A stretch of DNA of 64,000 nucleotides from Tistrella mobilis (lineage in GTDB: Bacteria; Pseudomonadota; Alphaproteobacteria; Tistrellales; Tistrellaceae). Position numbers and translations under genes: made by a program. The DNA is taken from the NCBI RefSeq assembly GCF_039634785.1, contig NZ_JBBIAB010000003.1, positions 325,724 to 389,723 on the forward strand, in the 5' to 3' direction. Positions 13,495 to 39,972 of the stretch are shown here, piece by piece. Positions within the stretch are counted from its first letter, which is position 1, and each line of letters begins with the position of its first letter. The notes under the pieces were generated by a model. It did not search any database. It was not told where the DNA came from and saw only the letters and a list, made by a program, of their open reading frames with translations.

Positions 13495-13653
13495 GCTCCC
13501 GCACGGTCCCGTGCGGGAGCAAGCCGCCATTGCGGCGGCGGCCAAGGGGTGCGGAAGCACCCGCTTGGGCCGAGGGACCACAAAGACTCCCGCCATTGCG
13601 GCGGCGGCCAAGGGCGCGGAAGCACCCGCTTGGGCCGAGGGACCACAAAGACT
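13495..13653. repeat. Dispersed hairpin repeat element, copy A (1.6 units)
   Basis: The element starts with a 12-bp inverted repeat (13495-13506 with 13509-13520). It continues AAGCCGCCATTGCGGCGG and then CCAAG, GGGTGC, GGAA, GCACCC, CTTGG, a second long stem, ending GACCACAAAGACT. The part from 13524 to 13588 is repeated almost exactly at 13590-13653. It fills the convergent gap between the transferase gene and the DUF4394 gene, whose stop codon it touches at 13652. Related copies occur at 14935-15025 (reversed) and 39856-39972. Confidence 0.85.
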
Positions 13654-14470
13654 ACTCCATCCAGGCGATGTCGGTGATGGGGGCCGGTGCGCCATCCACC
13701 AGGCGAAGCGGCGTGGCCTTGCCCGTGGCCAGATCCAGCTTGTGGATCACCCCGCCATTGACCATCCAGCCGGCCTCGCCACCCATCTCGGTCGAGACGA
13801 TGTTGAAGGCGATGGGGGTGTCGACGGTGACGCCCAGCCGGCCGATCGCGGTCAGCACGCCGTCATTCGGCGGTGCCTGCTTCACCAGGGCGCCGATCGT
13901 GGCGTCGATGTCGTAAAGCGCGGTGGCTTCGGCCTTCCGGCCGGTGCGCGAATTGGTATAGGCGCCGGCCACGATGTTCGGGGTCTCGCCCTTGTGCATG
14001 TCGGCATAGGCGAGCCGGCCATCGACCACCGCCTTGCCGTCGTCGACATTGACCCTGAGATTGGTGCCGTCGGGCGTCATCACCCGCAGCCGGTCGGCGG
14101 CCGGGTTGAAATCGACCGTCACACCATGGCGGGCCGACAGCTTCTCCGACAGGGTCGCCCGCACCGTCGCCTCGCCGGTGCCGGGATCGATGGTGACGAT
14201 CCGGCCATCGCCCGCCAGGCCGTAGAGCCGGCCATCCGCCGGCCGGACATCGATGCCGACCAGGCCGGGCACGCCCGAAATCGCGACCATGCCGGTCACC
14301 TTGCCGGTGGCCGGGTCGATCTGCACCAGGCTGCTGTCACCCGCAAGCCCCACCAGCGTGCCGGCAGAGGCCGTGGTCATGCCCGGCATCATCGCCAGCA
14401 TCGGCAGGGCCAGAGCGGCCGTGGCGGCAGCCCGGACGGCGCCGGTCTTCAGGTATTGAAAGCGTGTCAT
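13652..14470 (-). CDS. DUF4394 domain-containing exported protein
   Basis: This 272-aa protein has a signal peptide (about residues 1-36, ending TTASAG) and a DUF4394 body. The repeated blade-like pattern reads GLAGDSSLVQIDPATGKVTG, then GIDVRPADGRLYGLAGDGRI. These proteins look like beta-propeller-type secreted proteins of unknown role. ATG 14470 was chosen because it begins the signal peptide and has GGGAGA upstream; the longer frame from 14530 does not. The stop codon overlaps the end of the dispersed hairpin repeat. Confidence 0.85.
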   Translation of the reverse strand: MTRFQYLKTGAVRAAATAALALPMLAMMPGMTTASAGTLVGLAGDSSLVQIDPATGKVTGMVAISGVPGLVGIDVRPADGRLYGLAGDGRIVTIDPGTGEATVRATLSEKLSARHGVTVDFNPAADRLRVMTPDGTNLRVNVDDGKAVVDGRLAYADMHKGETPNIVAGAYTNSRTGRKAEATALYDIDATIGALVKQAPPNDGVLTAIGRLGVTVDTPIAFNIVSTEMGGEAGWMVNGGVIHKLDLATGKATPLRLVDGAPAPITDIAWME

Positions 14471-14647
14471 GGTCGGCGTCTCCCTCTCGTTCGGGGGCGG
14501 CGTCGGCGGGACGATCGGGTCCCGCTCCACCCATCAGGGAAACAACGCTGCGACCGGTCGGGATGGATGCACGGTCGTGGCGGATTTTTCCGTCCAGGCC
14601 TGCCCGGGCTGCCGGCGGGCGGGCCGGGTTGGACATTTTGCAATGCA

Positions 14648-14667
14648 TTATTTCAAACGTTCAATTG
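14648..14667. promoter_or_regulatory. AT-rich motif shared with the biotin carboxylase promoter
   Basis: The 20 bases here, centred on CAAACGTTC, match 16 of 20 with 22891-22910 upstream of the biotin carboxylase gene (TAAACGTTTG core). It lies directly upstream of, and partly overlaps, the TTGACT -35 of the candidate small RNA, where a regulator could block RNA polymerase. Confidence 0.35.
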
Positions 14668-14693
14668 ACTCGCGGGAAACTTTCCCCTACATA
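14665..14693 (+). promoter_or_regulatory. Sigma-70-type promoter of the candidate small RNA
   Basis: TTGACT (14665-14670), a 17-bp spacer and TACATA (14688-14693) form a good housekeeping promoter. The predicted start at about 14700 coincides with the 5' strand of the closing stem of the structured RNA that follows. Confidence 0.65.
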
Positions 14694-14699
14694 AGACCT

Positions 14700-14927
14700 G
14701 CGCTCACGAAAGGATCGGTCAGGAAACCCGGCGGACACTGTCGGAAACAGCCGGTCCCTGTTGAACGCCCTGATGACTGGCAATTCGGCGGCGCAGGCTG
14801 CGTCTCCCCGGCAGATCCGCCGCCGTTGCTCATCCGTCATCGGTCCCCCTCCTCTCCCCCATGAGTGAGCGGTGACGGATGTCGTCTCGGACGCCCGGCC
14901 CCTGGTGGCCCGGGCGTCCTTTTTTTT
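14700..14927 (+). ncRNA. Candidate structured small RNA (6S-like architecture, unassigned)
   Basis: No protein-like frame lies here, yet the sequence folds strongly. CGCTCAC (14701-14707) pairs perfectly with GTGAGCG (14865-14871), closing about 170 nt. Inside, CCGG (14728-14731) pairs with 14751-14754, and CTGT/ACAG pair within it. A long apical arm pairs 14772-14777 with 14836-14841, 14780-14783 with 14826-14829, and 14786-14793 with 14818-14825 (8 bp), capped by CTGC/GCAG. A sigma-70-type promoter lies just upstream and a strong terminator ends at 14927. Closing stem, open middle and long apical arm in about 170 nt recall 6S RNA, but I see no decisive sequence match and leave the family open. 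Confidence 0.6.
14889..14927 (+). terminator. Intrinsic terminator of the candidate small RNA
   Basis: GGACGCCCGG (14889-14898) pairs with CCGGGCGTCC (14910-14919), and eight T residues follow (14920-14927). This is a textbook factor-independent terminator on the plus strand. No plus-strand protein gene precedes it within 1.4 kb, so it most plausibly ends the small RNA. Confidence 0.88.
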
Positions 14928-14934
14928 GGGAGAG

Positions 14935-15025
14935 AGGAGTCTGTTTGGCCCTCGCCGGGCGGGCGCTCCGCGCCCTTGGCCGCCGCCGCAATGGCGGCTT
15001 GTTCCCGCACGGGGCGTGCGGGAGC
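14935..15025. repeat. Dispersed hairpin repeat element, copy B (reverse orientation)
   Basis: Read on the minus strand it begins with GCTCCCGCACG, three bases and CGTGCGGGAAC. It then runs AAGCCGCCATTGCGGCGG, CCAAGGGCGC, GGA, GCGCCC and ends CAAACAGACTCC. Compared with copy A the second stem has GGGCGC/GCGCCC in place of GGGTGC/GCACCC, a compensatory change. It lies downstream of the phzF stop codon (15077). Confidence 0.8.
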
Positions 15026-15076: not shown

Positions 15077-15940
15077 TCAGCCGATAGGGGCGGTCAGGCC
15101 GGAGATGCGGATGGGGCTGCCGGGTTCGGGGCCGAAGCTGGCGTGGATCAGGCTGGGGCGGCCCATGTCTTCGCCCTGCACCACCTGGATCGCCCCTTCC
15201 TCCAGCCAGCGGATGTCGCGCAGATAGCCGGCCAGCGCCGCCGCCGCGGCGCCGGTTGCCGGGTCCTCGTAGACCCCGCCGATGGCAAAGGGGTTGCGGG
15301 CGTGGAAGCGGGTGCGGCTTTCCGCGGTCACGAAGATGAAGGTGGCGAGCGACTGTTCCGCCTGCAGCGCCGCACCGCGCGCAAAGGCATACCCCAGCTG
15401 CGACAGGCGGCGGCGATCCTTCAGCGCCACCACCAGATGGTTGGCGCCGGCATGGATCAGCCGCACCGGCAGATGCGGGTCCAGATCCGCATCCGTCAGC
15501 CCGAATTCCTCCAGCACGCGCCGCACATAATCCGCCGGCGGCAGCCGGGTCCAGGTCGGCGGCGAGGTCAGCGCCGCGGCCCAGCCATCGCCTTCCGGGA
15601 TCGCCTCGACCGTGATCCGGCCGGCATTGAGGGTAAGATCATAGACCCCCGCCCCCACGCGGGCGCCAAGCGCCGCCCCAAGGGCGATGGTAGCATGGCC
15701 GCAGAACGGCACCTCCTGGCGCGGCGCGAAATAGCGCACCCGCCAGCCGCCCGCTGCCCCGCCCTGATCGGGAACCGCAAAGGCGGTTTCGGAATAGCCG
15801 ACCGCCTTCGCCACGGCCAGCATCTCGGCCTCGGTCGGCCAGCTGTCGGCAAAGACCACCCCGGCCGGATTGCCGCCATCGGCATCGGCGGTATCGGGGG
15901 TGAAGGCGGCAATCTTGAGCACGGTCTCTGGCTTCAACAC
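15077..15940 (-). CDS. PhzF family isomerase
   Basis: This 287-aa protein of the PhzF/diaminopimelate-epimerase fold has the N-terminal half GGNPAGVVFAD and GYSETAFAVP (the Glu is the family catalytic residue). It also has RYFAPRQEVPFCGHAT and the second-half EDPATGAAAAALAGYL. There is no ATG near the homologous start. GTG 15940 is preceded by GGAGG nine bases upstream and gives the usual family length. It is divergent from a MocR-type regulator with a GTGACAC/GTGTCAC pair between, so the regulator probably controls it. The substrate is unknown; only some family members work in phenazine synthesis. Confidence 0.85.
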   Translation of the reverse strand: MLKPETVLKIAAFTPDTADADGGNPAGVVFADSWPTEAEMLAVAKAVGYSETAFAVPDQGGAAGGWRVRYFAPRQEVPFCGHATIALGAALGARVGAGVYDLTLNAGRITVEAIPEGDGWAAALTSPPTWTRLPPADYVRRVLEEFGLTDADLDPHLPVRLIHAGANHLVVALKDRRRLSQLGYAFARGAALQAEQSLATFIFVTAESRTRFHARNPFAIGGVYEDPATGAAAAALAGYLRDIRWLEEGAIQVVQGEDMGRPSLIHASFGPEPGSPIRISGLTAPIG

Positions 15941-15987
15941 AGTCTCATCCCTCCGGTTGCCGCTGTCTTGAGGATGACCGTATGATG

Positions 15988-16020
15988 GTGACACCTGATG
16001 CTCAATCCCGATAGTGTCAC
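15988..16020. promoter_or_regulatory. Candidate MocR operator between phzF-like gene and its regulator
   Basis: GTGACAC (15988-15994) and GTGTCAC (16014-16020) form an inverted pair with centres about 26 bp apart. The site lies in the 111-bp divergent gap between the phzF-like gene and the MocR gene. Paired half-sites in a divergent promoter are usual for MocR regulators, which control the neighbouring gene and themselves. Confidence 0.5.
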
Positions 16021-16051
16021 GGTACACTTTTGACCGGAAGGCAGAACACCC

Positions 16052-17443
16052 ATGCGCCGCCCCTCGGACTGGACCCCCCGCCTGGCTGCGGGTGACGGCG
16101 CGCTGGCCGAACGGCTGGCCGCAGCGCTTGCCGACGACATCGCCCGCGGCCGCATCGCCCCGGGCGACCGGCTGCCGGCCCATCGCGATCTGGCCTGGCG
16201 GCTGGAAATCGGCCTCGGCACGGTCACCCGCGCCTATGCCCTGCTGGAACGGCGCGGGCTGGTGGTGCCCGAACGCGGCCGCGGCATGTTCGTGGCGGTG
16301 CCGCCCGCCCAGCCCCCGGGGCCGGTGGATCTGTGCGTCAACACACCGCCGCGCATGCTCGATACCCAGGCGCTTCGTGCCTCTCTGGCCCGGCTGGCGG
16401 CACGGATCGACATGTCGGGTTTCGGCAGCTACACGCCATCAGCCGGCACGCCGCAGCATCGGGCGATGATGGCGCGCTGGCTGGCCCGCGACCGGCTGGA
16501 GCTGCCGCCGTCGCGGCTGATGCTCACCTCGGGCGCCCAGCATGCCCTGGCGGTGGCGATCGCCACCGCCACCGGCGGCCGGCCGGGCACGATCCTGACC
16601 GAAAGCCTGACCTATCCCGGCATCATCACCATCGCCCGCCATGCCGGCCACCGGCTGCAACCGGTCATGGTCGATGACCAGGGCATGTGCCCCGACGCGC
16701 TGGACCGCGCCCTTCACACGGCGATGCGGGATGGGCGCCCGGGACGACGGCTGATCTACATCACCCCCACCCTGCACAACCCCACCGCCGCCAGCATGAG
16801 CCGCGCCCGGCGCGAGGCGATATCGGGTGTCGCCGCCGCCCATGATGCGGTGATCGTGGAGGACGACGTCTATGGCGTCTTCGCCGCCGGGGACATGCCG
16901 CCGCTGACCGCGCTCGCGCCCGATCGCTGCCTCTATGTCTCGGGCCTGTCGAAGAGCCTGAGCCCGGGGCTGCGCATCGGCGCCCTGGCGGTGCCGCCCG
17001 CCTTCCTGGAAGCCGCGGCCGATGCGCTCGCCGCCGGCGCGACCATGGCCCCGCCGCTCGGCTGCCTGCTGATGGAAAGCTGGCTGGAAGACGGAACCGC
17101 AGAGGCCGTGGAGCAGGCCGTGCGGGCGGAAAGCCGCGCACGCACCGCCCTCGCCCGCCGGCTGCTCGGCAAACATGTCGCGCCCCAGGAAACACCCGGC
17201 TTTCACATCTGGCTGCCGATGCCGCGCCCGCGCGCCGAAGCCCTGGCAATGGCCGCCGCCACCCGCGGCATCCGCGTCACCCCGCCCTCGGCACCGATGG
17301 TCGATGATCGCCCGGGCGCCCCTGCGGGCCTGCGCCTCTGCCTGGGCGGGCCATCGCCCGAGGCACTGACCACCGCCCTCAACGACATCGCCCGTCTTGT
17401 TGAGGAACGGGACACGGATCCGGCTGCCTATGTTGCAGTTTAG
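16052..17443 (+). CDS. MocR-type regulator (GntR wHTH fused to aminotransferase fold)
   Basis: This 463-aa protein has a GntR winged helix at about residues 20-85 (ALADDIARGRIAPGDRLPAH, then TVTRAYALLERRGLVVPERG). A fold-type I PLP aminotransferase domain follows. The PLP Lys is expected in YVSGLSKSLSPGLRIG, and the Asp/Tyr pair VEDDVYGVF is also present. MocR proteins use the aminotransferase domain as an effector sensor, usually without turnover. It is divergent from the phzF-like gene. The known members PdxR, GabR and TauR suggest an amine or amino-acid signal (inference). Confidence 0.9.
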   Translation: MRRPSDWTPRLAAGDGALAERLAAALADDIARGRIAPGDRLPAHRDLAWRLEIGLGTVTRAYALLERRGLVVPERGRGMFVAVPPAQPPGPVDLCVNTPPRMLDTQALRASLARLAARIDMSGFGSYTPSAGTPQHRAMMARWLARDRLELPPSRLMLTSGAQHALAVAIATATGGRPGTILTESLTYPGIITIARHAGHRLQPVMVDDQGMCPDALDRALHTAMRDGRPGRRLIYITPTLHNPTAASMSRARREAISGVAAAHDAVIVEDDVYGVFAAGDMPPLTALAPDRCLYVSGLSKSLSPGLRIGALAVPPAFLEAAADALAAGATMAPPLGCLLMESWLEDGTAEAVEQAVRAESRARTALARRLLGKHVAPQETPGFHIWLPMPRPRAEALAMAAATRGIRVTPPSAPMVDDRPGAPAGLRLCLGGPSPEALTTALNDIARLVEERDTDPAAYVAV

Positions 17444-39855: not shown

Positions 39856-39972
39856 GTCGGTCGCCGACGCGACCGACAAGCCGCCATTGCGGCGGCGGCC
39901 AAGGGTGCGGCAGCACCCGCCCGGCGAGGGTCAGACAAACTCACCCGCCCGGCGAGGGACCAGACAGACTCC
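39856..39972. repeat. Dispersed hairpin repeat element, copy C
   Basis: A first hairpin is formed by GTCGGTCGC (39856-39864) and GCGACCGAC (39869-39877). Then AAGCCGCCATTGCGGCGG and CCAAGGGTGC, GGCA, GCACCC follow. The tail CACCCGCCCGGCGAGGG is itself repeated (39914 and 39942 regions), ending ACAGACTCC. The first hairpin has a different sequence from copies A and B but the same layout. It ends three bases before the SDR stop codon (39976). Confidence 0.85.

Follow-up and report, generated by a model that had tools for sequence, protein, structure and literature searches.

We describe a small RNA (sRNA) gene in a 64-kb window of a Tistrella genome, the window being the whole stretch of DNA analysed here. 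The locus is very probably a real, stand-alone sRNA gene that has so far gone uncatalogued, and we put at roughly 0.52 the probability that its product is independently transcribed, acts in trans and represses mRNAs through C-rich loops. The source genome (6.16 Mb) is alphaproteobacterial and carries the window in its contig C3; NCBI places Tistrella in the Geminicoccales. The window stretch is 98.8% identical to plasmid pTM3 (1.13 Mb) of Tistrella mobilis KA081020-065. Three Tistrella genomes were available, namely the source, KA081020-065 of the same species and G001 of a different species, and the sRNA locus is present in all of them, with a single copy in the source genome. The DUF4394 and PhzF-like genes that flank the sRNA (Table 1) also bracket it in G001, as seen by comparing the two genomes over several kb, while a GST gene and a MocR-type regulator lie farther away. 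Downstream of the terminator nothing gene-like was found on the plus strand, and since the first recognised gene on that strand does not appear before position 16052, the sRNA is not a leader. The window also holds a G+C-rich dyad repeat of about 62 bp with the core TTGGCCGCCGCCGCAATGGCGG, located at 14944-14998, at 13524-13611 (two copies, minus strand) and at 39881-39902. This repeat is positioned after gene ends and is dispersed in all three Tistrella genomes, and in G001 it forms tandem arrays that vary in copy number; it looks like a REP-like intergenic element.

Table 1. Coordinates of the sRNA locus, its predicted parts and the flanking genes in the window.
Feature	Position	Strand	Remarks
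A+T-rich invariant stretch	14648-14664	+	just upstream of the -35 element; identical in 3/3 genomes
-35 element TTGACT	14665-14670	+	identical in 3/3 Tistrella genomes
-10 element TACATA	14688-14693	+	TACACA in G001; 17-nt spacer to -35
Predicted small RNA, about 227 nt	14701-14927	+	fold z -3.0; conservation above neutral
5' hairpin domain with unpaired CAGGAAAC internal loop	14701-14767	+	interspecies changes at paired sites keep pairing
Central three-way domain with two hairpin arms	14772-14886	+	predicted fold
First-arm apical loop GUCUCCCCG, 4C motif	14802-14810	+	unpaired probability 0.9-1.0; identical in 3/3 genomes
Second arm	14831-14881	+	stem from CAUCCGUCAUCG, pairs with the 3' side up to 14881
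17-nt pyrimidine run UCCCCCUCCUCUCCCCC	14844-14860	+	holds open 5C loop UCCCCCAU; anti-Shine-Dalgarno-like
Intrinsic terminator	14889-14927	+	10-bp stem, then T8; conserved in 3/3 genomes
DUF4394 gene	13652-14530	minus	flanks the sRNA
PhzF-like protein gene	15077-16183	minus	flanks the sRNA

The preliminary description of this locus had proposed a TTGACT-N17-TACATA promoter and a strong terminator with eight T residues. Both are present and, at the sequence level, they give the RNA the promoter of its own and the intrinsic terminator that are looked for in a base-pairing sRNA. The promoter was not listed by a strict E. coli sigma-70 scan; the pattern TTGAC-N16-18-CTANAW, which we take to resemble Caulobacter-type promoters, has a single match in the 64 kb, exactly at this position, with 0.02 matches expected. 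The sequence suggests a conserved alphaproteobacterial promoter of the housekeeping type, and the positions of the two elements predict a transcription start at about 14700. The stretch immediately upstream of the -35 element is a possible UP element or regulator site. Within the spacer, GAAACTTTCC at 14676-14685 includes a short inverted repeat, invariant in the three Tistrella genomes, which could be an operator. At the other end, the terminator pairs ten G+C bases (14889-14898 with 14910-14919) ahead of the T residues at 14920-14927, the tail being one T shorter in KA081020-065.

Between the source genome and G001, identity reaches 91-97% in a block from about 14637 to 14930. The intergenic flank upstream of the sRNA is scrambled, with 41-68% identity and indels, and variable repeat DNA follows downstream of the block. 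Within the 227 nt of the RNA, ten substitutions and one gap separate these two genomes (95.6% identity), whereas in the adjacent DUF4394 gene 85.5% of the four-fold degenerate sites are identical (Fisher p = 0.0008); one substitution separates the source from KA081020-065. The RNA is most likely kept by selection in the genus Tistrella, judging from these alignments.

The full RNA folds at -103.2 kcal/mol, when compared to -88.8 +/- 4.8 kcal/mol for shuffled sequences, and none of 200 shuffles folded as well. The predicted architecture consists of the 5' hairpin domain, the three-way domain and the terminator, and not of one closed rod. All seven substitutions that fall in paired columns between the source and G001 keep a standard pair, and in the second arm G001 has C-G for U-G at one pair and U-G for U-A at another, both of them compatible changes. 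Random substitutions of the same kind harm the fold more, as judged by the energy of the RNA's own fold (P = 0.016) and by the minimum free energy (MFE, P = 0.022), with P = 0.07 for the count of broken pairs when substitutions are placed at random. Since none of the pairs has changed on both sides in these three genomes from two species, the changes that support the fold are all of the compatible kind. Loss of the stems in relatives had been named at the outset as grounds for giving up the RNA; within the limits of three genomes, the related species has retained them. Both C-rich apical loops, GUCUCCCCG and UCCCCCAU, are predicted to be open and are invariant in the three genomes, in each of which the accessibility of 14855-14862 is about 1.0. 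A pyrimidine run of 17 nt is reached in 0.9% of the shuffles (P = 0.009).

A 7-bp closing stem at the predicted 5' end had also been described. The complementarity exists (CGCUCAC/GUGAGCG, 14701-14707 with 14865-14871) and survives in G001, where one C-G pair has become U-G, but the stem accounts for no more than 0.8% of the predicted ensemble (probability 0.008), forcing it costs 2.6 kcal/mol, and the predicted fold of the full RNA pairs both arms elsewhere. A 7-bp complement of this sort occurs in 2.5-6% of shuffles. Because a fragment ending at 14875 prefers this pairing and the finished RNA does not, the stem could, in the folding model, be a transient pairing.

We then considered how such an RNA might work. 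A housekeeping-type promoter would start the sRNA of about 227 nt at about 14700, and the intrinsic terminator would end it at about 14927. The sRNA would act in trans, its apical loops GUCUCCCCG and UCCCCCAU pairing with G-rich ribosome-binding sites. By masking these sites on several mRNAs, the pairing would repress translation, whether or not Hfq assists; an hfq gene was found in the source genome (110 bits). We favour masking in trans because the C-rich loops are open and invariant and because there are precedents in sX13 and in the anti-Shine-Dalgarno (aSD)-loop sRNAs. By analogy, the chances that the Tistrella sRNA works like these C-rich-loop sRNAs are about even.

In Xanthomonas, sX13 represses mRNAs independently of Hfq, by means of apical C-rich loops matching G-rich motifs near start codons (PMC3771888). 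It is the model for the mechanism proposed for the Tistrella sRNA, with which it shares stable stems and C-rich (4C/5C) apical loops (PMC3771888), although sX13 has three stems and a family model of 115 positions (RF02232). Membership in this family was rejected: KA081020-065 scores 20.4 bits where the cut-off is 50, and neither the window nor G001 gives a match at E <= 10. The aSD-loop sRNAs, whose C-rich loops are the complement of Shine-Dalgarno sequences, are known in alphaproteobacteria, from Rhizobiales and Rhodobacter, and SmelA075/SmelA099 and RS0680a are like the Tistrella sRNA in being alphaproteobacterial and in having C-rich anti-Shine-Dalgarno loops (PMC3927594). They consist of two to four hairpins that resemble one another and all carry CCUCCUCCC, and they occur in several copies per genome, whereas the Tistrella sRNA has CCCCCUCCUCUCCCCC in one arm, a long 5' domain and one genome copy. 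Genome-wide, the loop's G-rich complement shows no excess over a reversed control, and no specific conserved target was found. DUF4394 was rejected as a local target, since it ranks 34th of 48 and does no better than shuffled loops. In two genomes, GGGAGAGAGGAG at 14928-14941, just after the terminator, complements the C-rich loop; a pairing of the loop with this stretch upon read-through was dropped because the stretch is missing in KA081020-065.

No part of the window matched an Rfam family at gathering thresholds, and a permissive search of the sRNA locus in the three Tistrella genomes returned nothing near a cut-off. The ylbH leader, on the minus strand, scored 22-25 bits against a cut-off of 50, and Hrs13, sX12 and BcKCsr2 were all far below theirs. 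The alphaproteobacterial sRNA ar7 (RF02342) aligns with the Tistrella sRNA over its full length, at 17 bits against a cut-off of 60, and equal or higher scores are reached at unrelated places in that genome. Two covariance models, R1 for the 3' part and R2 for the 5' domain, were run against 385 alphaproteobacterial genomes. Convincing matches were found in Tistrella only, the R2 matches outside the genus being at chance level for 385 genomes, and a match to R1 in G262 is essentially the terminator hairpin. The blastn matches in G042 and G053 cover 25-32 nt, and the one in G042 is inside an open reading frame. In the contigs of 84,980 species, a 20-base loop pattern was found only in Tistrella and in three unrelated contigs, none of which fits the model over its full length and two of which fit it over the short pattern stretch only. 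The sRNA thus appears restricted to Tistrella so far, as read from its absence elsewhere in this sample and its presence in three Tistrella genomes. A literature search found no description of small RNAs in Tistrella. That the locus encodes a new structured small RNA between a promoter and a terminator of its own, as the preliminary description proposed, is backed by conservation, by folding and by the lack of an Rfam match.

Other readings of the locus carry less weight than repression in trans through C-rich loops. A real small RNA could have another function, as a cis-acting or replicon-linked regulator or as a structural RNA of unknown partner. We regard this as rather unlikely, though deserving of some credit: the locus is on a 1.13-Mb plasmid in T. 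mobilis KA081020-065, and the tightly conserved 5' domain and promoter are without known counterpart, but the evidence singles out no particular alternative target or partner, and the plus strand is devoid of anything gene-like between the terminator and 16052. More speculative, and in our view unlikely, is a new Tistrella-only sRNA family, borne in at least one strain by a large secondary replicon, that would be a two-module regulator without known counterpart and would combine the C-rich loops with a 5' domain having its own protein or ligand partner.

It is improbable that the RNA works through protein binding and not through mRNA pairing, for instance by binding CsrA through GGA motifs. 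A CsrA gene was found in the source genome (75 bits), and the RNA has six GGA, one of them in the clearly open loop CAGGAAAC; however, six is near chance, the shuffles having 4.5, and three of the six are buried in stems, one of these in the terminator. Known CsrA sponges have GGA in most hairpin loops, an arrangement that the Tistrella RNA does not display. The lack of GGA enrichment, together with the fact that most of the motifs do not lie open, makes a CsrA sponge less likely. We see even less reason to believe that there is no functional RNA and that a promoter-like and a terminator-like sequence are paired by chance in a conserved intergenic region. Folding does come easily to G+C-rich DNA, but the conserved block coincides with the limits from promoter to terminator, conservation exceeds that of neutral sites, and the substitutions spare the fold.

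The preliminary description had further held that no protein frame competes, which overstates the case: a minus-strand open reading frame of 59 aa (14661-14840) lies behind the Shine-Dalgarno-like run GGGGGAGAGGAGGGGG, though its substitution pattern is non-coding. Substitutions look coding in none of the six frames (in minus frame 0, for example, 5 are silent and 11 are changing), and the Shine-Dalgarno-like run arises only as the opposite strand of the C-rich loop. It is highly improbable that a small protein gene runs from 14840 to 14661, upstream of DUF4394. The spacing from GGGGGAGAGGAGGGGG to the ATG (GTG in G001) is good, and in each of the three genomes the frame has no stop until close to its end; nevertheless, most in-frame substitutions alter amino acids, including R to E, L to P and E to K, the frame stops earlier in KA081020-065, at codon 57, no relative was found outside Tistrella among plasmids, and the conservation spans promoter through terminator in the plus direction, against a minus-strand gene.

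The earlier suggestion that the architecture resembles 6S RNA was not borne out. The source genome has its own 6S RNA (C40:21290-21497), with an RF00013 score of 45.2 bits, 47.3 bits in G001 and a cut-off of 46.4; it may escape annotation pipelines because it scores just under that cut-off. This RNA has 208 bases, against 187 positions in the model, and the gene beside it reads as zapA-like. The zapA side is the usual location of 6S RNA. Because the canonical 6S RNA sits there, and the neighbours of the sRNA are DUF4394 and PhzF, the sRNA is not 6S RNA. It is like 6S RNA in its similar length and in being predicted to form its own transcription unit, but its MFE structure is multi-domain and lacks the 6S layout of a long rod that has a closing stem, a central bubble and a terminal hairpin. 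That it is a 6S-type RNA, mimicking an open promoter and binding RNA polymerase, is the least credible reading, for a size of about 170-230 nt and a possible 7-bp closing stem retained in G001 are set against the absence of an RF00013 match at the locus even at E <= 10, the rarity of that stem in the ensemble, a fold without central bubble and a true 6S RNA elsewhere in the genome.

Tistrella is a genus known for didemnin production. The reach of the finding beyond Tistrella is limited; within the genus, a strongly conserved stand-alone RNA is an entry point to RNA regulation. If it represses mRNAs through its loops as we propose, the sRNA may be one more example of a C-rich-loop sRNA that arose in a separate lineage.
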